NCBI RefSeq assembly: GCF_027497175.1
Contig: NZ_CP114901.1
Coordinates: 6,324,001 to 6,388,000, forward strand
Source of the DNA: Verrucosispora sp. WMMD573
GTDB lineage: Bacteria; Actinomycetota; Actinomycetes; Mycobacteriales; Micromonosporaceae
DNA: 64,000 bases
Direction of reading: 5' to 3'
The translations under genes and the position numbers were made by a program. The first letter of the stretch is position 1; every line of letters starts with the position of its first letter. Positions 37,576 to 57,843 of this stretch are shown piece by piece. Under the pieces are notes generated by a model. The model ran no database searches. It saw only the letters and a list, made by a program, of their open reading frames with translations, and was not told the origin of the DNA.

Positions 37576-37774
37576 GTGTCCTTTTCCCCTGTCGTGTTGG
37601 GGATTCCGTTACCTGCGGGACCGGGGCGAGGGATGACCGGATGCGGCGGCCCCGACGATGTACCGGTGGACGCTTGTCGCGTCTGGGGCCGACGGGTTGC
37701 GCCTCCCGCCGACTCACCGGCCACCTCACGGTCGCCGTCCCTCACTCTAGGCGGGCGGCGGTCGGTAGGAAAGT

Positions 37775-37807
37775 GCCCCGGCGCGACGGCGAGCGCCGCA
37801 CCGGGGC
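37775..37807. terminator. Terminator after the ThuA-DUF1080 gene
   Basis: GCCCCGG / CCGGGGC arms with further pairing inside (CGC/GCG), directly after the minus-strand stop at 37814. Confidence 0.6.
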
Positions 37808-37813
37808 GTTCAG

Positions 37814-39532: not shown

Positions 39533-39558
39533 GTGCTCTCCCAACGATTGGTGGTGTC

Positions 39559-39607
39559 AGGAGGGGCCCCTGTTTCCAACCCTAGGCGTTGACCAGGAGC
39601 CCCTCCT
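39559..39607. terminator. Terminator after the PQQ-type dehydrogenase gene
   Basis: 14-bp arms AGGAGGGGCCCCTG / CAGGAGCCCCTCCT pair with one mismatch around a 21-base loop. The hairpin lies five bases after the stop of the 39612 gene and before the ribosome site of the 39532 gene. Confidence 0.7.
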
Positions 39608-39611
39608 CGGA

Positions 39612-42461
39612 TCAGGGCAGGACCCAGCGCTGGTTGGCGCCGGTGTGGCAGGTCCACAGGTGCACCGCCTGCCCGTCGGCGGAGCTGTTGCTCGACACGT
39701 CCAGGCACTTGCCCGAACTCGGGTTACGCAACGTGCCGTTGGACTGCGCCGACCAGTTCTGCGCACCACTGCCGTTACAGGTCCACAACTGGATCTTCGT
39801 GCCGTCAGCCGAGCCGGCACCGTCGACGTCGAGGCACTTGCCGAAAGCCCGGATCGTCGAGTTCGGCGTCACCGTCCACGTCTGCGCCGCCGTACCGTTG
39901 CAGGTGTAGATCTGAATCTGCGTACCGTCGGCCGTCGCCGCGTTACGCACGTCCAGACACTTACCGCCCAGGCCGACGATCGGACCGGTTCCGCCCGTAC
40001 CACCGCTGCCGGTGGTGAAGGTGAACGAGTCCAGGTCGTAGAGCGAGCCGGTCCCGGTGCCGGCGAAGGTCAGGTAGAGCGTGGTGGTGCCGGACGGCGG
40101 GTTGCTGATGGTGCCGGTGACCGTGGTGAAGGTGTCCCAGGCGCCGGTGACCGGGACGGTGGCCGAGCCGAGCACGGTGCCGGTGGCCGAGCCGGCCCGC
40201 ACCTGGAGGGTGCCGCCGGAGCCGGCCGAGGAGACCCGGGCGCTGAACGACGTCACATTGTTGATCCGGTACGGCTCGAAGGCGATCCAGTCACCGTTGT
40301 TGATGTTGCCGACGGTCTTGCCGCCCTCGGCGGCCGCCTTGTCGAAGGTGGCGATGCCGGAGGAGGTCTTGTAGTGCTCGGCCTGCCGGCTACGGGGCTG
40401 GAGGGTGTGCTGGGTGTGGGTGGTCAGCCCGCCGGCATCGGTGTACTCGGCGTCGAAGATGGCGAAGATGTTCGCCGCGTAGTCGTGCTCCCCGTCCACC
40501 GGGATCGTGATCGAACCGGAGCACCCGTTGCGTGAGGTGATCTGGTGGCCGTGGCTGTCGTGGCCCAGCACGTAGGTCATTCTGACCTTGGTGCAGTCGA
40601 TGGTGCCGTCCTCCGGGTCGGTCACCGTGATGCTGAACGGCACGGTGTCGCCGAAGGAGAACAGCGATCCGTTGACCGGGCCGTTGATGGTGACCGTCGG
40701 CGCGGTGTTGCCGACCCGGATCTGCACGCTGGCGGTGCCGGTCGCGCCCTGCGGGTCGCGTACGGTCAGGGTGGCGGTGTAGCTGCCGTTGGCGGTGTAC
40801 GTCTTGCTCGGGTTGGCCGCCGTGGAGGTGGTGCCGTCACCGAACGCCCACGAGTAGGTCAACGCCCCACCCTCCGGGTCCGACGACCCGGCCGAGGAGA
40901 AGTTCACGCTCAACGGGGCGACCCCGGAGGTCCGGTTGGCCGAGGCGACCGCCGTGGGTGCCCGGTTGCCTCCGGCGACGTAGTCGTAACGGTAGAGCGC
41001 CGAGTTGGCGTCGCCGTTGAAGTAGCCGGTGCCGTAGTCCAGCACGTAGAGCGCACCGTCCGGCCCGAAGGCCATGTCCATGACCTGCTTGCCGTTCCAC
41101 GGGAACGACGCGTCGATCGCGCCCACCGAGCCGTCGCTGTTGACGTGGATCGGCTTGATCCAGCCCCGGCCGAACTCACCGGCGAAGAAGAGCCCGTCGA
41201 AGCTCTGCGGCCACTTGGTGGTCGACGTCGACGCCGCGTTGTAGCGGTAGACCGGGCCGGCGCTCGGCGACTCGGAGCCGCCGCCGAACTCCGGCGGGCT
41301 GCCGGCGTCACCGGCGTAGCGGATCCAGGACGGCTTGGCGGCCGGCAGGGTGGCCAGGCCGGTGTTGCGGAACGAGTTGTTCGTCGCGCCGCCGGTGCAG
41401 TTGTACTTCGGACCGGCGGTGCCGTTGGCGAAGTTCCACTCGGCGTACGTCTCGTTTGTGGTGTTGGTGCCGGTGCAGTACGGCCAGCCGTAGAAGCCGG
41501 GCCCGGTGACCCGGTTGAACTCCACCTGCCCGCTGGGCCCGCGTGCGGAGGTCGAGCCCGCGTCCGGCCCGTAGTCGCCGACGTAGACGACGCCGGTGGC
41601 CTTGTCGACGCTCATCCGGAACGGGTTGCGGAAGCCCATCGCGTAGATCTCGGGGCGGGTCCGGGCGGTGCCGGGCGCGAACATGTTGCCGGCCGGGATC
41701 GAGTACGACCCGTTGGCGTTGACCTTGATGCGCAGGATCTTGCCGCGCAGGTCGTTGGTGTTGGCGGCGCTGCGCTGGGCGTCGTACGCCGGGTTGCGGT
41801 TGGTGCGCTCGTCCAGCGGCGAGTAGCCGCCCGAGTCGAACGGGTTGGTGTCGTCGCCGGTGGAGAGGTACAGGTTGCCCGCCGCGTCGAAGTCGATGTC
41901 GCCGCCGACGTGGCAGCACATGCCCCGGTCGGCGGGCACGTCGAGGACGTCGACCTTGCTGGACTGGTTGAGCGTGAAGTCGGCGTTGAGGGTGAACCGG
42001 GACAGCCGGTTCACTCCCTGCCAGGCGGAGAAGTCGCTGGCGGTGGCCGGTGCGTCGCCGCTCGGAGTGGACAGCGGCGGCGCGTAGTAGAGGAAGATGT
42101 GCCGGTTGCTGGCGAAGTTCGGGTCGACGCCGATGCCCTGCAAACCCTCCTCGTCGTGGGTGTAGACCGATACGGTACCGATCACGGTCGTGGTGCCGGC
42201 CGCATCGGTGCGACGCACGGTGCCGTTGCGGGCGGTGTGCAGGACCGAGCGGTCCGGCAACACCGCGAGGGTCATCGGTTCACCGACCTCGGCCACCCCC
42301 TTGGCGAGGGTGACCTGCTGGAAGTCGCTGGCGACGATGGGGTGGGCGCGGGCCGGGGTCGGGCCGGCAATGGCAACGGTGCCGGCTGTGACGACCAGGA
42401 GCAGCGCCGAAGCGCTGGTGGACCACCGTGCGGGGTGGCGGGTGGTGCGCATGGTGGACAT
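39612..42461 (-). CDS. Secreted PQQ-type sugar (sorbosone) dehydrogenase with PKD, CBM6 and ricin domains
   Basis: The 949-residue protein starts at the ATG at 42461 with AGGAAGGGA upstream. A signal peptide ends at ARA before HPIVASDF. A beta-propeller of the glucose/sorbosone dehydrogenase type spans about 40-520 (EGLQGIGVDPNF; MGFRNPFRMSVDKATG; FGPDGALYVLDYG). A PKD domain follows (about 525-610; PLSVNFSSAGSSDPEGG, YSWAFGDGTTS), then a CBM6-like carbohydrate-binding domain (about 700-815) and a ricin lectin (about 825-949). It should oxidise sugars outside the cell using PQQ. Its products could be substrates for the neighbouring ThuA-DUF1080 protein. Confidence 0.9.
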   Translation of the reverse strand: MSTMRTTRHPARWSTSASALLLVVTAGTVAIAGPTPARAHPIVASDFQQVTLAKGVAEVGEPMTLAVLPDRSVLHTARNGTVRRTDAAGTTTVIGTVSVYTHDEEGLQGIGVDPNFASNRHIFLYYAPPLSTPSGDAPATASDFSAWQGVNRLSRFTLNADFTLNQSSKVDVLDVPADRGMCCHVGGDIDFDAAGNLYLSTGDDTNPFDSGGYSPLDERTNRNPAYDAQRSAANTNDLRGKILRIKVNANGSYSIPAGNMFAPGTARTRPEIYAMGFRNPFRMSVDKATGVVYVGDYGPDAGSTSARGPSGQVEFNRVTGPGFYGWPYCTGTNTTNETYAEWNFANGTAGPKYNCTGGATNNSFRNTGLATLPAAKPSWIRYAGDAGSPPEFGGGSESPSAGPVYRYNAASTSTTKWPQSFDGLFFAGEFGRGWIKPIHVNSDGSVGAIDASFPWNGKQVMDMAFGPDGALYVLDYGTGYFNGDANSALYRYDYVAGGNRAPTAVASANRTSGVAPLSVNFSSAGSSDPEGGALTYSWAFGDGTTSTAANPSKTYTANGSYTATLTVRDPQGATGTASVQIRVGNTAPTVTINGPVNGSLFSFGDTVPFSITVTDPEDGTIDCTKVRMTYVLGHDSHGHQITSRNGCSGSITIPVDGEHDYAANIFAIFDAEYTDAGGLTTHTQHTLQPRSRQAEHYKTSSGIATFDKAAAEGGKTVGNINNGDWIAFEPYRINNVTSFSARVSSAGSGGTLQVRAGSATGTVLGSATVPVTGAWDTFTTVTGTISNPPSGTTTLYLTFAGTGTGSLYDLDSFTFTTGSGGTGGTGPIVGLGGKCLDVRNAATADGTQIQIYTCNGTAAQTWTVTPNSTIRAFGKCLDVDGAGSADGTKIQLWTCNGSGAQNWSAQSNGTLRNPSSGKCLDVSSNSSADGQAVHLWTCHTGANQRWVLP
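39624..39962. repeat. Near-identical lectin-domain segment, copy 2
   Basis: Partner of 37826-38164 at an offset of 1798 bp. It encodes the C-terminal lectin of the PQQ-type dehydrogenase. Confidence 0.9.
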
Positions 42462-42644
42462 CGCAGTGCTGTCCCTTCCTGACGAGTGCTTCTGCCAGGG
42501 CGGGGCGCGCGCCGTCGCGCCGGATGCCGTAGCCGGGGGGGTGCCGAGGGGGGTCCCGCGCCGCCGGTTCACCTCGACGAAACAATTCGGTGCTAGCGAC
42601 GACACTAAGCGTCATTCGTCTATGTGTCTATATCTTCTGCCCGC

Positions 42645-42707: not shown

Positions 42708-43775
42708 TCAGCGCTGCCGGTCGATGGCCTGGGCGGCCAGCTCCGTCAGGGCGGTCCGGCTGTCCGCGGTCACCTCGGTGTGTTCCAGCGCCGCCAACCC
42801 GGCCTCGGCGCGGACCTGGATCATCTGCTCGATCTTCCGGCGTGCCCCGGTGCTCTCGATGATCTCGCGCAGCTCGGCGGCGCCGTCGGCGTCCAGGTCG
42901 GGATTGCCGAACAGCTCACGCAGCCGGGCACCCTGCGCCCGGTCGGCGGCATCGCGGGCCAGCGCCATCATCACCGTCGGTTTGCCCTCGCGCAGATCGT
43001 CAAGTACGGACTTGCCGGTGACCGCCGGGTCACCGAAGACCCCCAGCACGTCGTCGCGGAGCTGGAAGGCGTCCCCGAGCGGGTCGCCGAACTCGGCCAG
43101 CGCGTCGAGCAGCTCGACGGGCGCACCCGCCAGCGCAGCGCCGATCTGCAACGGCCGGGTGACCGTGTAGCGGGCCGCCTTCATCCGGATCACCGTGAGC
43201 GCACTGGCCACCGAGCCGTCGCCCACCCCGGACACCAGGTCGAGGTACTCCCCCGCGATCACCTCGGTACGCATCAGCGCGAACACGGCGTACCCCTGGT
43301 GCACCTGGTCGGGGCTCAACCCGCACTCGTGGAACATCTGATCCGACCAGGCGGCGCAGAGGTCACCACAGAGCAGGGCGGTGTTGCGTCCGTACGCCTC
43401 GGGGTCACCCCGCCACGACGAGCGGGCGTGCAGGTCGGCGAAGATCCGGTGCACCGAGGGCTCCCCCCGGCGGCGGTCGCTGCCGTCCAGGATGTCGTCG
43501 TGGATCAGCGCGAACGCGTGGAACAGCTCCAGCGCGGCGGCGGCGACCACGATCGGCGTGCCGTCCGGGCCGCCCGCGCCCCGCCAGCCCCAGTAGCAGA
43601 ACAGTGGTCGCAGGCGCTTCCCGCCGGCCAGCACGAACCGGTGCAACGTGGTGAAGACCCCTCGGGGCGCGCCGTCCGGCCAGTCCGGATCCTGCCGGTC
43701 GAGGAAGGCGGTCAGCTCGGCGTCGAAGCGGGCCCGCAGCCCGGCGGAGTCGACAGCTGCCTCGGCGAGGGTCAC
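42708..43775 (-). CDS. Polyprenyl diphosphate synthase (GGPP synthase-like)
   Basis: The 355-residue all-helical protein has the first aspartate-rich motif HDDILDGSD and the second QLRDDVLGVFGD. Substrate-binding LAGGKRLRP also fits trans-prenyl diphosphate synthases. It joins isopentenyl units onto an allylic diphosphate in the cytoplasm; the product length cannot be read reliably. The GTG start overlaps the EboF-like stop (GTGA). It ends the ebo-type operon, where it could supply the prenyl donor for the UbiA-family enzyme at 48854. Confidence 0.9.
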   Translation of the reverse strand: MTLAEAAVDSAGLRARFDAELTAFLDRQDPDWPDGAPRGVFTTLHRFVLAGGKRLRPLFCYWGWRGAGGPDGTPIVVAAAALELFHAFALIHDDILDGSDRRRGEPSVHRIFADLHARSSWRGDPEAYGRNTALLCGDLCAAWSDQMFHECGLSPDQVHQGYAVFALMRTEVIAGEYLDLVSGVGDGSVASALTVIRMKAARYTVTRPLQIGAALAGAPVELLDALAEFGDPLGDAFQLRDDVLGVFGDPAVTGKSVLDDLREGKPTVMMALARDAADRAQGARLRELFGNPDLDADGAAELREIIESTGARRKIEQMIQVRAEAGLAALEHTEVTADSRTALTELAAQAIDRQR

Positions 43776-45160
43776 CGTCCCTCCACTCCGGCCAGTTCCA
43801 GCAGCAGCCCCTTCACCTCCGTGGCCGCTATCCGGTCCCGGGCCACCGACGCGTCGGAGCAGAGCAGCACCGGCCCGTCGGCCGGATCGGCGGGCAGCCG
43901 TCCGTGTGAGCCCCGGACCGCCCGCGCGCCGGCATCCAACCCGACCACGTTCATCAGGTACCGCATGCCGAGCTTCTTGCGGGCCAGCGCGACCCCGGCG
44001 CGGCGCTTCGCCGCGCCCGGCGCGGCCGGGTCGAAGAACAGCTCCGCCGGGTCGTACCCGGGCTTACGGTGGATCTCCACCAGCCGGGCGAAGTCGGGCG
44101 CACCCGCGTCGTCCAGCCAGTAGTAGTACGTGAACCAGGCGTCCGGCTCGGCCACCAGCACCAGCTCACCGGCGCGTGCATGGTCCAACCCGTGTGCCGC
44201 CTTGCCGTCGGCGTCGAGCACCTCGGCCACCCCGGGCAGGCCGGCGCAGAGCTTCATCACCGCCGGCACGTCGGCCGGGTCGCGCACGTACACGTGCGCG
44301 ACCTGGTGGTCGGCCACCGCGAAGGCGCGAGAGGTCCACGGGTCGAGGTACTCCATGCCCGCCTGGGTGTGCACCCGGAGCAGCCCCTCGGCGCGCAGCA
44401 ACCGGTTCACGTCCACCGGACGGGACACCTCGGTGATGCCGTACTCCGACAGCACCACCACGGTCGCGTCGCGGGCCTGCGCGGCGTCCAGCAGCGGCGC
44501 GAGCACGCCGTCGAGTTCCGCCGCCGCGGCGGCGGACCGGGGCGACGACGGGCCGAACCGTTGCAGGTCGTAGTCCAGGTGCGGCACGTAGACCAGGGTC
44601 AGGTCGGGCGACGACTCGGCGAGGATCTGCTCGGCCGCCCGGCAGATCCAACGGGACGACGGCAGGCCCGCACCCGGTCCCCAGTAGGTGAACAGCGGGA
44701 AGGTGCCGAGCCGGTCGGTGAGCGCGTCGTGCAGTTGCGGCGGATCCGTGTAGCAGTCCGGCTCCTTGCGACCGTCGGCGTAGTAGACAGGTCGGGGTGT
44801 GACCGTCCAGTTCACGTCCGCGCCCATCGCGTACCACCAGCAGACGTTCGCCACCGTGTAGCCGGGCCGGGCGCGGCGCGCGGCCTGCCACAGCTTCTCC
44901 CCGCCGACAAGCGCGTTGTGCTGCCGCCAGAGCAGCACCTCGCCGAGATCCCGGAAGTACCAGCCGTTGCCGACGATGCCGTGTTCCACGGGTAGCGCGC
45001 CGGTGAGGAAGGTCGACTGCACCGAGCAGGTCACCGCCGGCAGCACGGTGCCCAACTCGGCGCGGAACCCGGTGTCGGCGACCGCACGCAGCCGGGGCAT
45101 GTGCGCCAGCAACCGAGGCGTCAACCCCACCACGTCGAGCACCACCAGTTGCCTGCTCAT
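43772..45160 (-). CDS. eboF: EboF-like nucleotide pyrophosphatase/phosphodiesterase
   Basis: The 462-residue protein of the alkaline phosphatase superfamily starts VVLDVVGLTPRLLAHMP, with a probable metal/nucleophile region CSVQSTFLTGALPVEHGI. Further sites are YVPHLDYDLQRFG and VVVLSEYGI. No signal peptide. In ebo clusters EboF is this type of phosphodiesterase. Its ATG overlaps the EboE stop (ATGA). Confidence 0.85.
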   Translation of the reverse strand: MSRQLVVLDVVGLTPRLLAHMPRLRAVADTGFRAELGTVLPAVTCSVQSTFLTGALPVEHGIVGNGWYFRDLGEVLLWRQHNALVGGEKLWQAARRARPGYTVANVCWWYAMGADVNWTVTPRPVYYADGRKEPDCYTDPPQLHDALTDRLGTFPLFTYWGPGAGLPSSRWICRAAEQILAESSPDLTLVYVPHLDYDLQRFGPSSPRSAAAAAELDGVLAPLLDAAQARDATVVVLSEYGITEVSRPVDVNRLLRAEGLLRVHTQAGMEYLDPWTSRAFAVADHQVAHVYVRDPADVPAVMKLCAGLPGVAEVLDADGKAAHGLDHARAGELVLVAEPDAWFTYYYWLDDAGAPDFARLVEIHRKPGYDPAELFFDPAAPGAAKRRAGVALARKKLGMRYLMNVVGLDAGARAVRGSHGRLPADPADGPVLLCSDASVARDRIAATEVKGLLLELAGVEGR

Positions 45161-46392
45161 GCTGTCACCGCCTCAGCTAACGGGGTCAGCCCGAGGGCGA
45201 CCAGCTCGTCCCGGGTGAAGGCCAGTTCGTCCGCGATTCCGGCGGCCAGCTCCGCGTCGGTGCGCGGGCGCCGTGCGGCCGGCAGCACCCCCCAGGTGTA
45301 CGTCTCGACGTCGAGGTGGTCGCAGCCGGCATCCGCACCGGCGAAGAGCGCGGTCAGCGCGGCGCGCAGCACCGGCAGGGTCGAGCCCAGCGGTGGTTCG
45401 GGTGGGGCGTGCAGTGGCACGTGGTAGTGCACCCGCCATGGCCCGGGCAGCGCGGCGTCCAGAGCGACGTCGAGATCGTCGGCCGCCCAGCTCGGATCCG
45501 CCGGATCGGCAGCCCGCGGCCCACCGGCCGGCGCGGTGGCGGTGGTCGGCGCGGTGGCGGTGGCGCAGCCGGCGGTGCGGGTCTGGTGCAGGAAACGCGG
45601 CTCGACCCAGCGGCGCAGGGCGGCGGCGTCGGCGGCCGGGTCGGCCGCCTCCAGCGCGGCGGACACCTGCACCTTGACCACCGGCAGGCCGGCGACGGCC
45701 AGCCGCTCCAGGGCGGCGGCGGGCTCCTCCCAGGCGCAGGCGAGGTGGGCCAGATCCAGGCAGATTCCGAGCCGATCGGTGTCCATTCCGGACAGGGCGG
45801 CGACCGCCTGCGGGGTGCTCTCCACCACGCAGCCGGGCTCCGGCTCGAAACCGACCCGCACCGGCCGGCCGGTCTCCCGCTCGACGGCGGCGAGTCCGCT
45901 GGCGAGCTGGTCGAGTCGGCGACGGGCGGCGTCCGCGTGGCTGCGGTCCCACGGCGTGCGCCAGGCCAGTGGCAGGGTGGAGACCGAGCCACGGGCGGCG
46001 TCGTCGGGCAGCAGGTCGGCCAAGACCCGGGCCAGGTCGAGGGTGTACCCGAGCCGCTCGTGCGTGGTCCAGTCCGGCCGGTACACCGCGCCCTTGACCA
46101 CCGGCGCCTGGAAGGCCGCGTACGGGAAGCCGTTGAGGGTGACCACCTCCAGCCCGCGTACGGTCAGCTCGGTGCGCAACCGGCGACGGGCGGCCGGGTC
46201 GGCGGCCAGTTCGGCGGCCACCGGGGCGGCCAGCCACAGGCCCAGCCCGAGCGGATCGGCACCGAGCGTCTCGCGGACCGGCACCGCGTAGGTGTCGAGT
46301 TGGGCGACGATGCCGGCGAGGTCCTCGGCGGGGTGCACGTTTGTGCAGTAACCGAGGTGGACGGTGCGCCCACCGGCGTGCCGCAGCCGCAT
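45157..46392 (-). CDS. eboE: EboE-like xylose-isomerase-type TIM barrel
   Basis: The 411-residue protein starts VHLGYCTNVHPAEDL, the typical EboE opening. It continues with TLNGFPYAAFQAPVVKGAVY, FEPEPGCVVESTPQAV and DHLDVETYTWGVLP. EboE is described as a metabolite traffic protein with an isomerase fold. An alanine/threonine/proline-rich insert near residue 275 looks like lineage-specific expansion. It overlaps EboB by one base and EboF by four. Confidence 0.88.
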   Translation of the reverse strand: MRLRHAGGRTVHLGYCTNVHPAEDLAGIVAQLDTYAVPVRETLGADPLGLGLWLAAPVAAELAADPAARRRLRTELTVRGLEVVTLNGFPYAAFQAPVVKGAVYRPDWTTHERLGYTLDLARVLADLLPDDAARGSVSTLPLAWRTPWDRSHADAARRRLDQLASGLAAVERETGRPVRVGFEPEPGCVVESTPQAVAALSGMDTDRLGICLDLAHLACAWEEPAAALERLAVAGLPVVKVQVSAALEAADPAADAAALRRWVEPRFLHQTRTAGCATATAPTTATAPAGGPRAADPADPSWAADDLDVALDAALPGPWRVHYHVPLHAPPEPPLGSTLPVLRAALTALFAGADAGCDHLDVETYTWGVLPAARRPRTDAELAAGIADELAFTRDELVALGLTPLAEAVTA

Positions 46393-47243
46393 CAGCTGCC
46401 GCCGCGCAGGATCGAGTTGCCGGCGAAGGTCGGCTCGGCAAGGTCGTCGTCGGACAGGTCGAGCCGCCCGGACTGCCCGTAGAACTCGACAGGATTACGC
46501 CACAGCACCCGGTCGACGTCGTCGTCGGTGAAACCGGCGAGCAGCATCGCCTCGCCGGTGGCCCGGGTGAGCAGCGGGTCGGAGCGTCCCCAGTCGGCGG
46601 CCGAGTTGACAAGCATCCGTTCGGTCCCGTACGCCCTGAGCAGCTCGACCATTCGCGGCGGCGACATCTTGGTGTCCGGATAGATGGAGAAGCCGAGCCA
46701 GCAGCCGGTGTCCCGGACCAGTTTCACTGTCGTCTCGTTGAGGTGGTCGAGCACCACCCGCTGCGGCGCGATGCCGGACTCGGCGACCACGGCCAGGCTG
46801 CGTTCGACACCCCGGGCCTTGTCCCGGTGCGGAGTGTGCACCATCGCCGGCAGGTCGTGCGCCACGGCCAGGGCGAGCTGGGCGGCGAAGGCGTCGTCCT
46901 CCTCGGGGGTCATCGAGTCGTACCCGATCTCGCCGACCGCCACCACGCCGTCCTTCTCCAGGTAGCGGGGCAGTTCGTCGAGCACCGGCCGGCAACGCCT
47001 GTCGTTGGCCTCCTTCGGGTTGAGCGCGATCGTGGCGTGATGACGGATGCCGAACTGCCCGGCCCGGAACGGTTCCCACCCGATTAACGAGTCGAAGTAG
47101 TCGGTGAACGAGCCGACGTTGGTGCGCGGCTGGCCCAGCCAGAACGCCGGCTCCACCACCGCCCGGACGCCGGCGGCGGCCATCCGCTCGTAGTCGTCGG
47201 TGGTCCGCGACGTCATGTGGATGTGCGGGTCGAAGATCCGCAT
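46392..47243 (-). CDS. eboB: EboB-like TatD-family metal-dependent hydrolase
   Basis: The 283-residue TIM barrel starts MRIFDPHIHMTSRTTDDYER, with a DPHIH metal motif. It also has GEIGYDSMTPEED, VHTPHRDKARGVE, LDHLNE and NSAADWGRSDPL. The ATG at 47243 has GGGAGG upstream, and a longer frame overlaps the EboA gene. This is the standard EboB type. Confidence 0.9.
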   Translation of the reverse strand: MRIFDPHIHMTSRTTDDYERMAAAGVRAVVEPAFWLGQPRTNVGSFTDYFDSLIGWEPFRAGQFGIRHHATIALNPKEANDRRCRPVLDELPRYLEKDGVVAVGEIGYDSMTPEEDDAFAAQLALAVAHDLPAMVHTPHRDKARGVERSLAVVAESGIAPQRVVLDHLNETTVKLVRDTGCWLGFSIYPDTKMSPPRMVELLRAYGTERMLVNSAADWGRSDPLLTRATGEAMLLAGFTDDDVDRVLWRNPVEFYGQSGRLDLSDDDLAEPTFAGNSILRGGS

Positions 47244-47860
47244 CACACCTCCCTGGGCTGGGGCTGGCTGGCGGCGGTGAGCCGATCCAGCAGTTCGGTG
47301 GCGTCGGCGGGCATGCTCCGACCGGCGGCCCGGCGCTCGGCGGCCAGCGCGGCGAGCATCTGCGCCAGTTCCCCGTCGGCGCGGGCGTCGAGGTCGGCCA
47401 CCACCCCCAGCGACACGTCGGTGAAAACGCACTTGAGCACCGCCTGCCGCCAGGCCGACGGGTCGAGGTGGCGGGCGTACGGGCCGAGGGCCGCGGCCAC
47501 CAACCGGGTGTCGTTGGTGCGGATCGCATCGTGCAGCAGCGGCACTCCGGCCGCGCCGATCGGCAACAACGGCAGCGCCTTGAGCACGGCCCGCTTCTCG
47601 GCGGCGTCCCCGGTGCGGTAGAGCGTCTCGGCCTGCTCGGCGTGGTCGGCGGGCAGGCTGGCCAGCAGCAGGGCCCGGGCGGCCTCGTCGGCGGTCCAAC
47701 CGGGCAGGTCGGGCAGGTCGTGTCGGCCGCAGCGACGGCCGGCCGCCGGGAAGAACCGCGCGATGGCGGTGGGTTCGGCCGCGACGCGGTCCAGGGCCGT
47801 GGCCAACCAGTCCGGATCGGGTACGCCCCGCAGGGCCGCCCGCAGCTCGTCCACTGTCAT
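47243..47860 (-). CDS. eboA: EboA-like helical protein
   Basis: The 205-residue protein starts MTVDELRAALRGVPDPDWLA, with a GGGAGGAG ribosome site. It is all-helical, with LLHDAIRTNDTRLVAAALGP and LKCVFTDVSLGVV, which matches EboA. EboA has no known enzymatic activity. It overlaps the EboB start by one base. It is separated from the upstream isomerase gene by 70 bp holding an inverted-repeat element. Confidence 0.85.
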   Translation of the reverse strand: MTVDELRAALRGVPDPDWLATALDRVAAEPTAIARFFPAAGRRCGRHDLPDLPGWTADEAARALLLASLPADHAEQAETLYRTGDAAEKRAVLKALPLLPIGAAGVPLLHDAIRTNDTRLVAAALGPYARHLDPSAWRQAVLKCVFTDVSLGVVADLDARADGELAQMLAALAAERRAAGRSMPADATELLDRLTAASQPQPREV

Positions 47861-47917
47861 CGCGTCTCCTCCCTCGTCCGCCGCCGTCGACGGCCGTGGC
47901 GGTGGTACCGCGTGCGT

Positions 47918-48000
47918 CCTTTGCTCTGCTTCACTCCACGCGTCGGTGGTTGTCCGGATAGCGGACGCCTGGTGGTGCGCCGGTTGAAGCAGAGCAAAGG
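47918..48000. repeat. 83-bp inverted-repeat element within the ebo operon
   Basis: Perfect 16-bp ends CCTTTGCTCTGCTTCA / TGAAGCAGAGCAAAGG enclose 51 bases that contain their own small dyad (GTCCG-GATAG-CGGAC). It overlaps the last codons of the minus-strand isomerase gene. I recall similar ends elsewhere in Micromonospora, but that is unverified. It may be a miniature mobile or palindromic repeat. Confidence 0.65.
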
Positions 48001-48857
48001 GTGTGCCGCGCGGCGGCGTTGCGCAGGAAATCCAGCGAGCGGGCGGCGACGGTGGGAGCGGCGTGCGAGTGCCGGGGCAACTCGACCGCCACCAGGCCCC
48101 GGTAGCCGATCTCGCGCAGCGCGGCCAGCACCGGCGGAAAGTCGATCTCGCCGGCACCGAACTCCAGGTGCTCGTGCACCCCCCGCCGCATGTCGTCGAT
48201 CTGCACGTTCACCAGGTGTGCGGCGATGTCACGGACGCAGTCGGGCACCGCCTGCGGCTCCAGGCAACGGCAGTGTCCGATGTCGAGAGTGATGCCGAGG
48301 CGGGCGGGCGAGCCGAGGGCGGTGTGCAGGCGACGCCAGTCGGCGATGTCCTCGACAAGCATCCCCGGTTCCGGCTCGAAGCCCAGCGTCACCCCGACGG
48401 CCTCGGCCGCCTCGATCACGGTGGCGCAGCCGGCGACCAGGCGGTCCCAGGCCACCGCCGGGGTGACCGTGCCCGGCCGGACACCGGCCCAGAACGAGAC
48501 CGCCTCGGCGCCGAGATCCGCGCCGATGGCCACCGCCCGGCGCAGGAACTCGATCCGGAGCGCGGGGTCGTCGTGCAGCAGCGTCGGGGCGTGCTTGTGC
48601 CAGGGGTCGAGCAGGAACCGCGCGCCGGTCTCGATCACCAGGCCGAGGCCGAGTTCGGCGAGCCGGCGAGCGACGGCGTCGACGCGCCCCGCCAGCCCGG
48701 GCGCGAACGGGTCGAGGTGGTCGTGGTCCAGGGTGAGGGCGACACCTGCGTAACCGAGATCGGCGATGACCGCGAGCGCGTCGTCGAGGCGGTGGTTGGC
48801 GAAGCCGTTGGTTCCGTACCCGAAGCGCAGTCCGTCGGGGGCGGTGGCGGCCGTCAT
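47931..48857 (-). CDS. Sugar phosphate isomerase/epimerase, second TIM barrel of the ebo-type operon
   Basis: The 308-residue protein starts LRFGYGTNGFANHRLDDALA. Metal ligands are probable in FEPEPGML, TLDIGHCRC, VQIDDMRRGVHEH and VAVELPRHSH. In this lineage it sits inside the ebo operon, overlapping the UbiA gene by four bases. The last 24 or so residues after FLRNAAA are encoded by an inverted-repeat element and look foreign. It probably acts on a cyclitol or sugar; inference. Confidence 0.87.
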   Translation of the reverse strand: MTAATAPDGLRFGYGTNGFANHRLDDALAVIADLGYAGVALTLDHDHLDPFAPGLAGRVDAVARRLAELGLGLVIETGARFLLDPWHKHAPTLLHDDPALRIEFLRRAVAIGADLGAEAVSFWAGVRPGTVTPAVAWDRLVAGCATVIEAAEAVGVTLGFEPEPGMLVEDIADWRRLHTALGSPARLGITLDIGHCRCLEPQAVPDCVRDIAAHLVNVQIDDMRRGVHEHLEFGAGEIDFPPVLAALREIGYRGLVAVELPRHSHAAPTVAARSLDFLRNAAARHTLCSASTGAPPGVRYPDNHRRVE

Positions 48858-49831
48858 GTCGGTGAGACCTTCCGGGCCAGCCGCCGGCCCAACGGCGCGG
48901 CCGCCGCCACCGCCAGTCCGAGCAGACCGGACCCGACGCGGGCGGTCAGCGCCCCCTGCAACGCGGGCAGGCCGGTGATACCGGCGCCCACCGCCGCACG
49001 GACCCGCGCGGCGGTCGGCTCGGCCGCCACCCGGGCCTGCGCGGTGCCGTAGCGGGTGGCGTACCAGCCGGCGAGGACGGCGGGCAGCGCCGCCGCCGCG
49101 CTGCCGAGGGCACGCCGACCGTGCCCGACGTCGCCGGCTCGCCGACCGTCGGTGCGGACGACAGGTGCGCGCCGGCCGGACTCCCCCGGGCCACCGGTCC
49201 GGATGGCGCTCGTGGTGAGCGGCCGGCCGGGCGGCAGCGCGGCGCTCGCCGCGATCAGGGCGGTGCCGGCGAGGGTACGCAGCGGCAGGGCGCGGTCGGT
49301 GCCGCTGACCTCCCGACGGGACAACGCGGTGACGGTCCAGGTGTGCACGGCGACGGTGACCGCGGCCGGCAACGCCCGCGCCGTCCGGCCTCCGGCGGCA
49401 CCGAGTAGCACGTCCAGCCCTCGGCAGGTGGCCATCATGGCGGGGCCGGCGGCGGTGTTCTTGGCCGCCAGGTCGTACCCCCAGACGGCGGCGGCGAGCG
49501 GCAACGCCACGGCGGTGGCCCGCCGGCCGCCGGCTGCGGCGGCGAGCCCGACGCCGGCCACGGTGAGACCGGCGGCGAGGCCGACCGCGAGGCCGGGACC
49601 GACCCGGCCGCTCGGTATCGGCCGCTCGGGGCGTTCCACGGCGTCCAGCTCGCGGTCGGCCCAGTCGTTGGCGGCCATGCCGGCCCAGTACAGCAGCACC
49701 GACGCGGCGGCGAGGGCGGGGGTACGCGGACCGAGGCTGCCCGCCGCGGCGGCACCGGCGATCACGTCCCCGGGTACCGAGAGCGCGGCCGGGGCGCGGA
49801 CCAGCTCGGCCAGGTCAGCCACGCGCGGCAT
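48854..49831 (-). CDS. eboC: EboC-like UbiA-family prenyltransferase
   Basis: The 325-residue membrane protein has about eight segments and the UbiA first motif NDWADRELDAVERPERPIPSG. YDLAAKNTAAG and MMATCRGLDVLLGA follow in the second motif region; the DxxxD second motif is weak, as is usual in EboC. A charged segment near 230-255 may be an insert. It overlaps the upstream synthase gene by 17 bases. Confidence 0.88.
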   Translation of the reverse strand: MPRVADLAELVRAPAALSVPGDVIAGAAAAGSLGPRTPALAAASVLLYWAGMAANDWADRELDAVERPERPIPSGRVGPGLAVGLAAGLTVAGVGLAAAAGGRRATAVALPLAAAVWGYDLAAKNTAAGPAMMATCRGLDVLLGAAGGRTARALPAAVTVAVHTWTVTALSRREVSGTDRALPLRTLAGTALIAASAALPPGRPLTTSAIRTGGPGESGRRAPVVRTDGRRAGDVGHGRRALGSAAAALPAVLAGWYATRYGTAQARVAAEPTAARVRAAVGAGITGLPALQGALTARVGSGLLGLAVAAAAPLGRRLARKVSPT

Positions 49832-50975
49832 CGGTGTCTCCGGCGTCCAGGCTGCCCGCGAAGACGCACAGCCGGGACCACTGGTCGGCCAGCGAGTGGG
49901 TCGCGGTGCCCAGCGGATCCTTGAAGAAGAAGGCCAGGTCGGTAAGCGCTCCGGTGTGGCCGGCGGCGTGCGCGGCGGCGGTGAGCCGGGCCAGGTCGAG
50001 CACGAGCGGGGCGGCCAGCGCCGAGTCGCAGCCGTGCCAGGTGAACTCCAGCCGCATTCCGGTACCCAGGAATCCCGCGAAGGTGATCAGATCCCAGGCG
50101 GTCTTGAAGTCACCGAGTTCCTCGACGTACCCGATCCGGGTGTCGCCCTGCGGCAGGTAGCCGAGCGTCTCCCCGAGCACCCGTTGCTTGCTGCGCACCT
50201 TCGCGGCGTTGGCGTCGGGATCGGCCAGGGTCGCGCCGTCGCCGCCGCCGAGCAGGTTGAGCCCGGACCAGGACCGGACGGTGAGGTGACGCATCGCGAA
50301 CATCGGGGCGAGCACCGACTTGAGCAGGGTTTCCCCGGTCTTGCCGTCGTGGCCGGCGTACGGCACGCCGTGGCGGTCGGCAAGCGCGGTAAGCGCCGGC
50401 AGCCGCAGGCCGGTCGACGGGGTGAAGTCGACGTACGGACAGCCCGCCGCGACGGCCGCGTACGCGTAGAGCGAGCTGGGCGGCAGCACCTCGCCAGGGC
50501 CGGCGAGGGCGGCCCGCAGCGCGTCCGGGTCGGCGTGCCCGGGATGCGGGCGGGGCGCCGGTTCGGTCGCGGCGACGTTCACCACCACCACCCGGGCCAG
50601 CTCGTGTCGCTGTCGGAAGGCGGTGAGATCCCGGACCAGCGCGGCGGCCCGGTCGGCCTGTGTCCCGGCGGTGGGCGCGGGGCGTAGTTCCCGTTCCACG
50701 GCGGCCAGTTCCTCGGGCAGCGCGGCGACCAGTCGGGCCGGCAGCACACCCGCGGCGGCGAGTTCCTCGGCGCGTTTGGCGATCGGCGTGGCGACCACGT
50801 CGTGGCCACCAAAGACCAGGTCGGCGAAGCCCGGCAGGGCGGCGCTGTTGACCCCGGTCAGTTCGGTGACGCAGCCGGTCGGCCCGGTCAAGCCGGCACG
50901 CAGCGCGAGCGCCCCGACGATGCTTGTGGTCGCGACCGAGCCACGCGCCCCCACCAGCCAGACACCTGTACGCAT
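49815..50975 (-). CDS. myo-Inositol-1-phosphate synthase family protein
   Basis: The 386-residue protein starts MRTGVWLVGARGSVATTSIV, an NAD-binding loop. It shows YVDFTPSTGLRLPALTALAD, AGHDGKTGETLLKSVLAPMF, LNLLGGGDGATLADPDANAA and the catalytic-region lysines typical of MIPS. The enzyme normally cyclises glucose 6-phosphate by internal NAD redox and aldol chemistry. The ATG at 50975 has GGAAGGAG six bases upstream. It is the first gene of the operon, upstream of EboC, and a good candidate to replace EboD, another NAD-dependent cyclase. It may be a paralog rather than the housekeeping MIPS. Confidence 0.9.
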   Translation of the reverse strand: MRTGVWLVGARGSVATTSIVGALALRAGLTGPTGCVTELTGVNSAALPGFADLVFGGHDVVATPIAKRAEELAAAGVLPARLVAALPEELAAVERELRPAPTAGTQADRAAALVRDLTAFRQRHELARVVVVNVAATEPAPRPHPGHADPDALRAALAGPGEVLPPSSLYAYAAVAAGCPYVDFTPSTGLRLPALTALADRHGVPYAGHDGKTGETLLKSVLAPMFAMRHLTVRSWSGLNLLGGGDGATLADPDANAAKVRSKQRVLGETLGYLPQGDTRIGYVEELGDFKTAWDLITFAGFLGTGMRLEFTWHGCDSALAAPLVLDLARLTAAAHAAGHTGALTDLAFFFKDPLGTATHSLADQWSRLCVFAGSLDAGDTDAARG

Positions 50976-51421
50976 AGCGCTCCTTCCGGTGTCCAGGAAA
51001 CCGACATGCATCAATTGAATCTTGATATCAGGAAAAAGCTGAAAAAGATACGGGTTAGGCCGATGCGCCCCGTCCGCCGCCCGCTCCGGTGAACACGCCG
51101 GCCGACGCCGAGGTCGGCGGCGACGACGTCGGGCCGGCGTACCGGTTGGGTCGGTCGGACGGGGCTGGCAGGCAGGGGCGGTCGGCGTCTCGCCCCTGCC
51201 TCCCCCGCATCCGGCCAGTCGGGACGACGGTGTCCCGATCGGACGGCTCATCGGACGCGGTCCGCCTGGCGGCGGGAGTCTCCAGGTGGACGGCAACGAA
51301 GTGGTCGATGGGCGGCGGCCCTCCGGTGCTGCCGGGGAATCCCGGTCCGGCCGCACCGGAGGAACCGCATTGCTCGTACCGCCGGTCGCCCGGGGCACGC
51401 CCTCCGGACCCGACCCGTACC
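50976..51421. other. Intergenic region with the ebo-operon promoter
   Basis: No supported gene. An unusually AT-rich stretch at 51007-51056 contains ATCAA-N7-TTGAT (51010-51026) and TGATATCA nearby, probably the promoter and operator of the MIPS-led operon. An 11-bp perfect hairpin AGGCAGGGGCG / CGCCCCTGCCT lies at 51170-51201. Confidence 0.5.
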
Positions 51422-51444
51422 GGCCACGGGGCGCAACCGTGGCC
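51422..51444. terminator. Terminator after the Gfo/Idh/MocA gene
   Basis: A perfect 8-bp stem GGCCACGG / CCGTGGCC with a 7-base loop, 29 bp after the minus-strand stop at 51474. The inverted repeat at 51170 may be a second one. Confidence 0.6.
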
Positions 51445-51473
51445 GGCCCTCGCCGGTCGGCTCCGGAGGTGGT

Positions 51474-52682
51474 TCAGGCGGCGACCGTCGCCATCGACGG
51501 CTCCACCGCGGCCCAGGAGGAGCCCAGTTCGGCCGAGCGGGTCACCGCGTCCAGCACCAGTTGCACCTGCAACGCATCGGCGAACGAGGGCGACGGGTCG
51601 ACGCCGGTCGCCACCGCCTCGATGAAGTCGCGCATCTGGTGGGTGAAGGAGTGTTCGTACCCGATGATGTGCCCCGGCGGCCACCAGGCCGACAGGTACG
51701 GGTGCTCGGCCTCGGTCACCAGTATCCGGTTGAAGCCCTGCTCGGCGGCGGGCCGGGTGGCGTCGAGGAACTCCAGTTCGTTGAGGCGTTCCAGATCGAA
51801 GGCGACGCTGCCCAGCGAGCCGTTGATCTCCACGCGGAGGGCGTTCTTGCGCCCGGTGGCGAACCGGGTCGCCTCGTACGTGGCAAGTGCCCCGCCGTCG
51901 AGGCGGGCCACGAAGATCGCCGCGTCGTCGACGGTGACCGGGCCGGTGGCGGCCCCGGCCCCGTCGGCCTGCGCCGCCAACCCGCTCGACTCGGCCGGCA
52001 ACGGCCGCTCCTTGACGAACGTCTCGGTCACCGCGCTGACCCCGCTGATCCGCTGTCCGGTGACGTACTGGGTCAGGTCGATGATGTGCGCACCGATGTC
52101 ACCCAGTGCACCGGAGCCCGACACCTCCTTGCGGAGCCGCCAGACCAGGGGGAACTGCGGGTCCACGATCCAGTCCTGCAGGTAGGCGGCCCGGACGTGC
52201 CGGATCTCGCCGAGCCGCCCGTCGGCGACGAGCTGACGCATCAGCGCCACCGCGGGCACCCGCCGGTAGTTGAAGCCACACATCGACCGGGCCCCGCCGG
52301 CCTGGGCGGTGGCCGCCGCGGCGGCCATCTCCCGGGCCTCGGCGACCGTGTTGGCCAACGGCTTCTCACACAGCACGTGCTTGCCCGCGGCCAGCGCGGC
52401 CAGCGCGATCTCGGCGTGGCTGTCACCCGGTGTGCAGATGTCGACCACGTCGATGTCCGGACGGTTCACCAGTTCCCGCCAGTCCGTGGTGTGCTCATCC
52501 CAGCCGAGCCGGTCGGCGGCCTCGGCCACCTTCGCGGAGTCCCGGCCGCAGATGAGCGCCATCCGGGCTCGCGCGGGCAGGTCGTACACCCGGTTCACGG
52601 TGCGCCACGCCTGCGAGTGCGCGGCCCCCATGAACGCGTAGCCGACCATGCCGACCCGCAGTTCGTTGTTTGTCGTGGACAA
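51474..52682 (-). CDS. Gfo/Idh/MocA family dehydrogenase
   Basis: The 402-residue protein starts at a TTG (52682) with GGGAGA seven bases upstream. Rossmann start ELRVGMVGYAFMGAAHSQAW and CTPGDSHAEIALAALAAGKH precede VLCEKPLANT, the signature of the family (EKP lysine). The GSGALGDIGAHIIDLTQYVTG motif carries the likely histidine. It oxidises sugars or inositols with NAD(P). It closes the operon with the sugar importer (21 bp after the binding protein). Confidence 0.92.
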   Translation of the reverse strand: MSTTNNELRVGMVGYAFMGAAHSQAWRTVNRVYDLPARARMALICGRDSAKVAEAADRLGWDEHTTDWRELVNRPDIDVVDICTPGDSHAEIALAALAAGKHVLCEKPLANTVAEAREMAAAAATAQAGGARSMCGFNYRRVPAVALMRQLVADGRLGEIRHVRAAYLQDWIVDPQFPLVWRLRKEVSGSGALGDIGAHIIDLTQYVTGQRISGVSAVTETFVKERPLPAESSGLAAQADGAGAATGPVTVDDAAIFVARLDGGALATYEATRFATGRKNALRVEINGSLGSVAFDLERLNELEFLDATRPAAEQGFNRILVTEAEHPYLSAWWPPGHIIGYEHSFTHQMRDFIEAVATGVDPSPSFADALQVQLVLDAVTRSAELGSSWAAVEPSMATVAA

Positions 52683-52703
52683 GGTGGGTCTCCCCCCGTT
52701 GTG

Positions 52704-53756
52704 TCAGAACCCGAGCTTGAGGTAGTCGCTCGCGTTCTCCTTGGTGATCGTTTCGGAGGCGAGGACGATCTCCTTGGGAACCTGGAGTTCCACCAGGTCG
52801 GACATGCCCCTGCCCTGGCCGATGAGACGGGCCAGCGAGATCGCCGAGGACGCCATCGACGGGCTGTAGGTCACCGTGGCCTTCAGCACCGTGTTGTCGG
52901 CCTGGATGTCCTCCATCGCCTTCTTCGAGCCGGCGCCGCCGACCATGAAGAACTCGCTGCGGTTGGCCTGGCTGATCGCGGCCAGCACACCGATGCCCTG
53001 GTCGTCGTCGTGGTTCCAGAGAGCGTCGATCTTCGGCTCGGCCTGCAGCAGCTGGGCCGCCTCCCGCTGACCGGTGTCCACAGTGAATTCCGCCGCCCGA
53101 CGGTTGGCCACCCGCAGACCGTGCTGGGCCAGGGTGTCGGCGAAGCCCTTCGACCGCTCCTGGGTCAGCTCCAGCGAGTCGATGCCGGCGATCTCGGTGA
53201 TCACCGGGTTGCTGACCCCCTTGGCCTTGAGCTGCTCGGCGATGAAGGTGGCCGCGGAGACGCCCATACCGTAGTTGTCGCCCTTGATCTGCAACCGGTA
53301 CGCCTTGGCGTCGGGGAAGGCCCGGTCCAGGTTGACCACCGGGATGCCGGCCTGCATCGCCTCCAGCCCGAACGAGTTGAGCTCCTTGCCGTCGTGCGGC
53401 AGCAGCACGATCACGTCGGGCCGCTGGGAGATCAGGGTGGACAGCGCCGCCCGCTGGGCCGCCGCGTCCGCACCCGCCTCGACGATGTTGAAGTTCACGT
53501 CGGAATACGCGGCGGCCTGCGCCTTCGCGTTGTTGGTGATCGCGGCGATCCAGCCGTGATCCGCGGCCGGTGCGGAGAAGCCGATGGTCACCTCCTGGCC
53601 GGGCTCGGCGTTGGCGTTGCCGTCGGCCGCCTTGGTCTGCGCCTCGGTCGGCGACTGCTCGTTGCTGGTACAACCGGCGAGCAGTACGCCGGCGCCGACG
53701 GCCGCCCCGCCGAAGAGCAGCCGGCGCCGCGACATGTCGCGACTGTGCTGGGTCAT
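52704..53756 (-). CDS. Sugar ABC transporter substrate-binding lipoprotein, Tat-type signal
   Basis: The 350-residue protein of the ribose/inositol-binding fold starts at the ATG at 53756, with AGGAGG upstream. SRRRLLFGGAAVGAG with lipobox LLAGC (C29) suggests Tat export and lipidation. The body has the periplasmic-binding type 1 pattern: VTIGFSAPAADHGWIAAITN, ISQRPDVIVLLPHDG, VNLDRAFPDA and ALWNHDDDQGIGV. Substrate inferred to be a monosaccharide or inositol. Confidence 0.92.
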   Translation of the reverse strand: MTQHSRDMSRRRLLFGGAAVGAGVLLAGCTSNEQSPTEAQTKAADGNANAEPGQEVTIGFSAPAADHGWIAAITNNAKAQAAAYSDVNFNIVEAGADAAAQRAALSTLISQRPDVIVLLPHDGKELNSFGLEAMQAGIPVVNLDRAFPDAKAYRLQIKGDNYGMGVSAATFIAEQLKAKGVSNPVITEIAGIDSLELTQERSKGFADTLAQHGLRVANRRAAEFTVDTGQREAAQLLQAEPKIDALWNHDDDQGIGVLAAISQANRSEFFMVGGAGSKKAMEDIQADNTVLKATVTYSPSMASSAISLARLIGQGRGMSDLVELQVPKEIVLASETITKENASDYLKLGF

Positions 53757-53846
53757 GACGACCTCCTGGTTATTCACTGGTAAGGATTTTGGGTGTACGA
53801 GGCCCGGCCACCGTCGATTGCGCGGGTGGCCCGGATGCAGTGGTGC

Positions 53847-57705: not shown

Positions 57706-57821
57706 GGGCTCACCTCTCCCACCGGGGGCGTTCACATCGACGAAATGCCGACGTGTGGTGCCCGACACAGTAGGAGGCTTCAGTGCGCCCTGTCCAGACC
57801 TTAGAACCAATCTGTGCCCAA

Positions 57822-57843
57822 CTTTTGCTGGATCTAGCAAAAG
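57822..57843. promoter_or_regulatory. Operator-like dyad upstream of the ROK/sugar importer operon
   Basis: A perfect 8-bp dyad CTTTTGCT-N6-AGCAAAAG, 117 bp before the GTG at 57705 in a notably AT-rich patch. It is likely the binding site of the ROK repressor. Confidence 0.6.

Follow-up and report, generated by a model that had tools for sequence, protein, structure and literature searches.

The product of the ebo clusters has been a long-standing question since these clusters were named. Here we describe an eight-gene operon of Verrucosispora sp. WMMD573 which very probably belongs to a second type of ebo cluster, one in which a myo-inositol-phosphate synthase (MIPS), usually joined by a TIM-barrel isomerase (ISO), replaces EboD, a cyclase that resembles 3-dehydroquinate synthase (DHQS). 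The operon lies in a stretch of 64,000 nucleotides, the window, and coordinates given without a locus name refer to it. These assignments are drawn from sequence comparison. With moderate confidence, the best overall explanation is that such clusters make a membrane-bound prenyl-cyclitol.

An ebo operon without EboD

All eight genes lie on the minus strand and follow one another head to tail between 50975 and 42708. The first encodes an archaeal-type MIPS of 386 amino acids (49815..50975; PF07994, 172 bits, and PF01658, 99.8 bits, both above cut-off), which stands in EboD's place. It is followed by a UbiA-superfamily prenyltransferase of the SCO3242 family in the EboC position (48854..49831; 325 amino acids; PF01040 and NF045897) and by ISO, an isomerase/epimerase-like TIM-barrel protein that is typical of MIPS-type clusters (47931..48857; 308 amino acids; PF01261, 132 bits). 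Then come EboA (47243..47860, ATG start at 47860; NF035938, 159.4 bits, cut-off 50), EboB, a TatD-like metal-dependent hydrolase with a relative of 95.6 bits in the PDB, AF_1765 (46392..47243; PF01026, 49 bits, cut-off 27), the TIM-barrel protein EboE (45157..46392; NF035939, 402.3 bits, cut-off 250) and EboF, of the type I phosphodiesterase/alkaline phosphatase superfamily (43772..45160; PF01663, 215.8 bits). An accessory short-chain polyprenyl diphosphate synthase ends the run (42708..43775; PF00348, 156.9 bits). Genes were taken as open frames. The Pfam and NCBIfam matches thus bear out all eight identities proposed in a first-pass annotation of the same DNA.

That annotation also described overlaps at seven of eight junctions. 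The tight packing stands, the count does not: eight genes have seven junctions, of which six overlap, by 17, 4, 1, 1, 4 and 4 bases. The overlap of EboA with EboB is 1 base if EboB starts at the ATG at 47243 and 4 bases if it starts at the GTG at 47246. At the seventh junction 70 bases separate ISO from EboA, and GGGAGGAG stands shortly 5' of the EboA start codon. Before MIPS there are about 500 bases with no called gene, a probable promoter region (50976..51473, minus strand) that shows little likeness among congeners when aligned with loci L093, L101 and L115.

Of the six genes of a canonical ebo operon, EboA, EboB, EboE and EboF are therefore recognized here, while the prenyltransferase falls below the canonical EboC model (NF035940, 118.6 bits, cut-off 250) and EboD was found neither in the operon nor elsewhere in the genome, a single contig of 6.5 Mb. 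A search with PF01761 gave two matches, AroB (TIGR01357, 319.3 bits, cut-off 305) and a protein like glycerol-1-phosphate dehydrogenase; NF004852, on which a canonical EboD (locus L122) reaches 544.8 bits against a cut-off of 333, matched nothing in this genome at E 1e-60. We therefore reject an EboD hidden elsewhere in the genome, and the first-pass claim that the operon lacks one can be extended to the whole genome.

MIPS and EboD across actinobacteria

How far does this arrangement extend? Among 393 actinomycete genomes, EboE was above its cut-off in 98 and the window type of MIPS, counted at 320 bits or more, in 91. The two occur together in 91 genomes, EboE alone in seven, MIPS alone in none and neither in 295; these species are related and so are not independent. 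By genus, at looser thresholds, the counts are 32 of 122 for EboE and 26 of 122 for MIPS. No genome held an EboD above the NF004852 cut-off, with at most four candidates scored per genome, and weaker matches of 213-220 bits occur in two. There is thus no sign among these genomes of an EboD that co-varies with the cluster from elsewhere, which the first-pass annotation had named as grounds for giving up its reading.

We next consider individual loci, for which the thresholds in the tables were chosen by us. We examined 88 of 102 places with a full-length EboE and two further actinobacterial loci, 90 in all; six lone EboE loci were excluded, leaving 84 clusters. MIPS is present in 79 of these, ISO in 77 and EboD in none, so that the tabulation of EboD against MIPS which the first-pass annotation had proposed comes out clearly, and MIPS stands in EboD's place far beyond this genome. 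Five clusters lack MIPS. Two (L043 and L056) are each the second cluster of a genome in which MIPS is in the other one; one (L065) is near a contig end, with a MIPS on another contig of the same genome; and one (L061) is a fragment from a genome whose MIPS lies in L216, beside a sugar module. The fifth, L099, is discussed below.

An inositol monophosphatase was found in the two MIPS-less second clusters, L043 (by Pfam) and L056 (by similarity), and nowhere else in the loci scanned at E 1e-8. In both it adjoins the cluster together with an amine-oxidase-like FAD protein (L043:15867-16802 and L056:15390-16325).

The genomes with EboE only are of two kinds. One (G024) has cluster L099 and a distant MIPS elsewhere in the genome. 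The other six have a lone EboE paralogue (L083, L102, L105, L113, L217 and L218) that passes the NCBI EboE model outside any ebo cluster; the neighbours of the three scanned (L083, L105 and L113) are dehydrogenase, E1/transketolase or aldehyde dehydrogenase genes. Since these three copies sit among unrelated metabolic genes, the name EboE may be wrong for them.

The ebo-type MIPS also occurs outside ebo clusters, in L216 and L215, where a homologue of a sugar dehydrogenase and further sugar genes adjoin it. In L213 (G254:C1:1260424-1261146) MIPS was matched as two separate pieces, perhaps a decaying copy.

Other bacteria

The 11 EboD-type loci that we tabulated show the converse pattern, with EboD in all 11 and neither MIPS nor an ISO homologue above thresholds. 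Their hosts are Ketogulonicigenium, Salipiger (two plasmids of one strain), Mycetohabitans, Roseivivax, Azospirillum, two Deinococcus, Aureibacter and two further Pseudomonadota; Aureibacter is the whole of our locus coverage for Cyanobacteria and Bacteroidota. From its annotation, the Ketogulonicigenium locus carries two Gfo/Idh genes and a sugar phosphate isomerase other than ISO. The ebo genes of Mycetohabitans and Aureibacter are preceded by two others, for a ferritin-like protein and for a hypothetical one of about 590-630 residues (L124:2999-4081 and L250:1859-3127).

MIPS-type sets occur in other phyla as well. In Gemmatirosa (Gemmatimonadota), EboE, EboB, EboF, EboC, MIPS and ISO are found together. 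EboE is found in three of 397 Pseudomonadota genomes, counting the centre genome, Thiohalocapsa, which has ISO, EboC, EboA, EboB, EboE and EboF and no EboD in the stretch read. Its MIPS lies on the same strand some 12 kb upstream, with intervening genes that have no evident ebo role, so the link to the cluster is loose. A planctomycete (L204), a Desulfobacula (L187) and L201 have looser sets in which MIPS is accompanied by an EboC homologue. The planctomycete MIPS that we found are mostly outside ebo contexts. Three non-actinobacterial loci (L161, L191 and L196) pair MIPS with a DHQS-family gene (149-172 bits) and have no other ebo genes.

A reduced cluster in haloarchaea

The same combination of cyclase and prenyltransferase is found in some haloarchaea. 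Here MIPS and EboF share one strand, and the opposite strand carries an EboB-like TatD protein, ISO, UbiA and a second ISO. The full reduced set is present in 27 of the 31 haloarchaeal loci tabulated, which come from plasmid searches and from the best 80 of 564 confirmed loci in a scan of species genomes; at least two pairs among the 31 (L130 with L224, L141 with L231) are apparently the same record counted twice. In the remaining four, MIPS is alone (L136 and L225), the locus is cut by a contig end (L139), or the separate UbiA part of L225's genome is seen (L246). Halomarina L119, outside this table, has a MIPS among glycosyltransferase genes. L119 apart, the haloarchaeal loci bearing MIPS are L116-L118, L128-L141 and L224-L236.

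By genome, 14 of 145 haloarchaea have MIPS, and these same 14 are the ones with the cluster UbiA. Of the 13 MIPS-positive genomes examined, 12 have MIPS, EboF, EboB, UbiA and ISO grouped together. In seven loci the proteins match models built from the actinobacterial clusters with 339-396 bits for EboF, 286-302 for EboB, 149-174 for ISO and 441-459 for MIPS. For UbiA the match is 165-189 bits, against 83-101 on a model of EboD-type UbiA. No EboA was found in the haloarchaeal loci, and what matches EboE there is weak and reflects the ISO genes.

The MIPS homologue of H. volcanii, HVO_B0213, has been placed in the membrane-lipid section of a review of Haloferax annotation, in a passage that discusses inositol headgroups (PMC8305020). 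Because haloarchaeal MIPS genes lie mostly in a UbiA/TatD/isomerase cluster, also in two Haloferax species (L138 and L140), our results suggest a role other than that one.

A MIPS in addition to the housekeeping enzyme

MIPS converts glucose 6-phosphate to inositol 3-phosphate with NAD. The best match of the window protein in the PDB is the MIPS of Archaeoglobus fulgidus (1u1i, 231 bits), its closest solved relative, with which it shares the catalytic residues. The window protein differs in being bacterial and in sitting in an ebo operon, and it has little likeness to the actinobacterial Ino1 of M. tuberculosis (1gr0, 23 bits). N240, K259, K263, K291 and K352, labelled by what we take to be the Archaeoglobus numbering, are invariant in all 81 aligned MIPS. 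The residues mutated in PDB entries 3qvw, 3qvx and 3qw2 are all kept as well, so the active site is intact, and we predict an active enzyme.

Could the protein make some other ring? The PDB holds a MIPS-superfamily member named as a five-membered-cyclitol-phosphate synthase (6k96), and ISO could reshape a ring, so that the product might be a prenylated carbocycle other than inositol. We consider this unlikely, as the window protein matches 6k96 with 47.8 bits, is far closer to the Archaeoglobus enzyme and keeps the catalytic residues. The inositol monophosphatases of the two MIPS-less clusters also speak for inositol.

A further alternative is that MIPS is a linked gene for ordinary inositol, as needed for phosphatidylinositol and mycothiol, and that the ebo pathway no longer requires a cyclitol. 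Within this genome we reject a housekeeping role. The mycothiol Ino1 model TIGR03450, which we used because PF07994 alone missed the Ino1 of this genome, gives the window MIPS 23.7 bits against a cut-off of 638, and a separate Ino1 is above that cut-off elsewhere (C1:1452668-1453717, 658.8 bits). The same is true of 72 of the 80 ebo-MIPS genomes tested, in which a housekeeping role is unlikely; one more has an Ino1 as a contig-end piece only, and seven have none. A cluster MIPS that is itself the housekeeping enzyme, which would have led the first-pass annotation to abandon its reading, is thus not seen in general, and family f34 may be an exception. All five f34 genomes (G101, G183, G218, G266 and G298), five of the seven just mentioned, are without a TIGR03450 match at E 1e-100, so the cluster MIPS may be the sole inositol synthase in these genomes and serve their general inositol needs. 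The three haloarchaeal MIPS outside a cluster (L136, L225 and L119) and the placing of HVO_B0213 under membrane lipids agree with this alternative too. Even so, we judge it quite improbable, given the separate Ino1 of most hosts, an ebo-MIPS that never occurs without EboE in 393 genomes, and a haloarchaeal MIPS confined to 14 of 145 genomes, always with the cluster UbiA in the genome.

Probable repeated exchange of the cyclase

The evolutionary history points to more than one exchange. In the MIPS tree, the 27 sampled MIPS of actinobacterial clusters form one clade together with two solo copies (support 100/100). The haloarchaeal MIPS have a clade of their own, and those of Gemmatirosa, Thiohalocapsa and Desulfobacula are placed elsewhere. 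In the trees of other ebo proteins, Thiohalocapsa pairs with an EboD-type cluster on EboF (100/99), on EboB (98/97) and, not strongly, on EboE (86/88); Gemmatirosa falls among EboD-type rows on all three, and the actinobacterial EboF group beside the EboD-type ones. Constraining the MIPS-type rows to one clade is rejected by the approximately unbiased (AU) test on both EboF (p-AU 0.0003) and EboE (p-AU 0.0001), with the constraint groups chosen after the data were seen. A single swap of the cyclase is therefore not supported; there was probably more than one.

We regard this as strong genetic evidence for a cyclitol need: since EboD is repeatedly exchanged for an unrelated cyclitol-forming enzyme while most of the cluster stays, the cluster appears to need the cyclitol.

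Did UbiA change with the cyclase? There is a hint that it did. On the EboC tree one clade of MIPS-type UbiA is not rejected (p-AU 0.41), nor is one clade of EboD-type UbiA (p-AU 0.31), and holding the UbiA of Thiohalocapsa with that of its EboF partner (L242 with L243) is rejected (p-AU 0.0013), on long branches. A strict rule, by which UbiA always switches with the cyclase, was weakened once Bacteroidota-type EboC were added and single placements tested.

The prenyltransferase and its putative product

UbiA enzymes transfer prenyl groups. The window UbiA has the NDxxDxxxD and YDxxxK motifs and scores above cut-off on NF045897 (368.4 bits against 260), the model of the SCO3242 family, a name that gives no substrate. 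The family is named after the UbiA of S. coelicolor, in which SCO3243 is presumably the MIPS that adjoins SCO3242. The mentions of both genes in the portions of the open-access literature that we consulted are confined to transcriptome papers.

UbiA enzymes with like acceptors are said to group together (Hemmi et al., cited in PMC9385802). What is the nearest solved relative here? For a profile of 24 UbiA rows from both cluster types (A3), it is digeranylgeranylglyceryl phosphate (DGGGP) synthase (6m31; E 1.9e-23, 86 bits), followed by chlorophyll synthase (47 bits) and 4-hydroxybenzoate prenyltransferase (45 bits). DGGGP synthase puts a prenyl group on a hydroxyl of a glycerol-phosphate lipid (PMC9385802). 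It differs from what we propose in that its acceptor is a glycerol phosphate which is already prenylated, and the window protein, which alone matches it at E 0.023 only, does not pass the DGGGP synthase family model NF009521 (52.2 bits, cut-off 296).

Because DGGGP synthase is the solved enzyme closest to the UbiA profile, and MIPS and UbiA occur in the same haloarchaeal genomes, a prenylated cyclitol is the product class that we think the more probable. The first-pass annotation had proposed a prenylated inositol lipid or carrier; the prenylated cyclitol is supported by this indirect evidence, and inositol as the final moiety is an inference. A prenyl ether of inositol or its phosphate in particular is possible, at a lower level of confidence than the class.

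In the pathway we propose, MIPS would form inositol 3-phosphate from glucose 6-phosphate. ISO, EboE, EboB and EboF would rearrange or dephosphorylate the ring or carry out further chemistry, and UbiA would add a C15-C20 prenyl group to the cyclitol or its phosphate. The outcome would be a membrane-bound prenyl-cyclitol that serves as a lipid or a carrier.

For ISO we can be a little more specific. E161, E163, D192, H195, D222, H228, H230 and E259 are invariant across 16 aligned sequences, and in profile searches the nearest solved relatives are MJ1311, the L-ribulose-5-phosphate 3-epimerase UlaE, sugar isomerases and IolI. Given these residues, and relatives that are sugar epimerases and isomerases, ISO probably acts on the keto form of a sugar or cyclitol. 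The adjoining Gfo/Idh dehydrogenase could supply the ketone.

MIPS and an ISO homologue also occur together outside ebo clusters (L120, L121, L210 and L211), with 52-54% identity to the window ISO in L210 and L120. In Roseomonas (L120) methyltransferase, YcaO and glycosyltransferase genes accompany the pair, which may belong to a different cyclitol pathway.

The polyprenyl synthase is below the cut-off of NF042416 (310.8 bits, cut-off 600), and its nearest relatives in the PDB are a farnesyl diphosphate (FPP) synthase (8f8f, 252.5 bits) and a geranylgeranyl diphosphate (GGPP) synthase (3lk5, 246.5 bits), from which we guess a C15-C20 product. The first-pass annotation treated this enzyme as a core part of the pathway. 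That view fails: the gene is in just 11 of the 84 actinobacterial clusters, in one of these on the opposite strand, and the tabulated loci of haloarchaea and of EboD type all lack it. The dedicated FPP/GGPP synthase of Micromonospora would provide extra donor, and most relatives would use the general pool.

A number of observations weigh against the reading set out here. Some concern the link between MIPS and the cluster: L099 is a cluster with no MIPS nearby, in the haloarchaeon G413 MIPS and UbiA are 242 kb apart, and the f34 genomes described above have no Ino1 match. Others concern UbiA. The window protein alone prefers chlorophyll synthase (25.6 bits) to DGGGP synthase (17.8 bits), and the profile that favours the latter is a mix of MIPS-type and EboD-type rows. 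Bacteroidota-type EboC (Aureibacter, from an EboD-type locus, and ten proteins without known gene context) are closer to MIPS-type UbiA than proteobacterial EboC are, and the AU test does not reject trees in which the proteobacterial EboD-type UbiA is held with that of Thiohalocapsa or of Gemmatirosa (p-AU 0.40 and 0.30). On the biochemical side, quinolines, but not phenols or catechols, were farnesylated in vitro by EboC enzymes from Maribacter, Zobellia and Algoriphagus (PMC9235831). The MIPS ring keeps its phosphate, and the superfamily of EboD loses it (PMC5133447), so the products of the two cluster types need not be alike.

The quinoline result, obtained with Ubi-297/EboC, raises the alternative that UbiA prenylates an aromatic or quinoline acceptor, with the cyclitol as a separate head group or solute and the cluster concerned with metabolite export, as for scytonemin precursors. 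A transport role in Nostoc (PMC6282210) and the preference of the window UbiA for chlorophyll synthase among solved structures are in keeping with it. It is less easily squared with a UbiA profile that favours DGGGP synthase over 4-hydroxybenzoate prenyltransferase (86 against 45 bits) or with haloarchaea that have MIPS and UbiA without EboA or EboE. All in all we find it doubtful. It is also not exclusive of a prenyl-cyclitol product, as the prenyl-cyclitol could itself be the carrier.

We put forward a broader proposal tentatively: that EboD and MIPS, unrelated NAD-dependent cyclases, feed one pathway in bacteria and archaea, in which UbiA adds a C15-C20 chain in the manner of DGGGP synthase, giving an undescribed class of membrane lipid or carrier. 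If a prenyl-inositol lipid class does exist, it would be present in many actinobacteria and some haloarchaea. The precursor of the MIPS type would be ordinary inositol, which is sold in labelled form and would allow direct tracing of the lipid in laboratory Streptomyces that grow easily. The results also give a context to the orphan MIPS and UbiA of haloarchaea and to the NCBI 'SCO3242 family prenyltransferase'.

Neighbouring sugar genes

The operon is flanked by sugar genes, at 36568-42605 and 51474-57840, and similar ones lie near some haloarchaeal clusters. Upstream is a module of a Gfo/Idh/MocA oxidoreductase, a sugar-binding protein, a permease and an ABC ATPase (51474..56500, minus strand; by Pfam), which is probably a unit of its own; genes like it occur near some other ebo or MIPS loci. 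Downstream, Pfam identifies a TIM-barrel protein, a secreted ThuA with 3-keto-disaccharide hydrolase, and a secreted glucose/sorbosone dehydrogenase with PKD, CBM6 and ricin-B domains (36568..42605, minus strand).

Is the operon therefore part of a catabolic island for oxidised sugars, acting on an imported sugar or inositol? At least one of six neighbour genes is near 52 of 77 actinobacterial ebo clusters, a count that includes the window and has no background rate beside it. A dehydrogenase or ThuA is found at a few haloarchaeal loci, and L099 has Gfo/Idh and sugar-binding protein genes at the MIPS position. We hold this explanation to be very unlikely, as the cluster proper consists of a cyclase and a prenyltransferase, both biosynthetic, and all six neighbours are absent from the six loci of families f2, f10 and f25.

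Comparison with known systems

The idea of an isoprenoid-cyclitol is already known. Yurchenko et al. (2016; PMC5133447) proposed it as the ebo product, with EboD as a sugar phosphate cyclase. They also noted that actinobacterial EboA is fused to a xylose-isomerase-like protein and that eboD is missing in two of three Planctomycetes; the word inositol is absent from the main text, so far as it was available to us. Klicki et al. (2018; PMC6282210) tied the cluster to the export of scytonemin precursors, for which a lipid carrier was suggested. In the work of Moghaddam et al. (2022; PMC9235831), EboC was used to farnesylate quinolines, and an ebo region in the actinobacterium Saccharomonospora is discussed. 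In the open-access literature we found no paper that joins ebo with myo-inositol and UbiA, or EboC with inositol, and no description of a MIPS in an ebo cluster.

The canonical six-gene operon of eustigmatophyte plastids, Bacteroidota, Cyanobacteria and others (PMC5133447, PMC6282210) shares with the cluster described here EboA, EboB, EboE, EboF and a UbiA-superfamily prenyltransferase in a tight cluster. The two differ in the MIPS and extra TIM-barrel isomerase that stand here for the DHQS-like EboD, and in the SCO3242 type of the UbiA. A further parallel is the BE-40644 pathway of Actinoplanes, which makes a prenylated cyclitol (PMC5133447): there too, a sugar-phosphate cyclase and a UbiA-superfamily prenyltransferase are encoded in one cluster.

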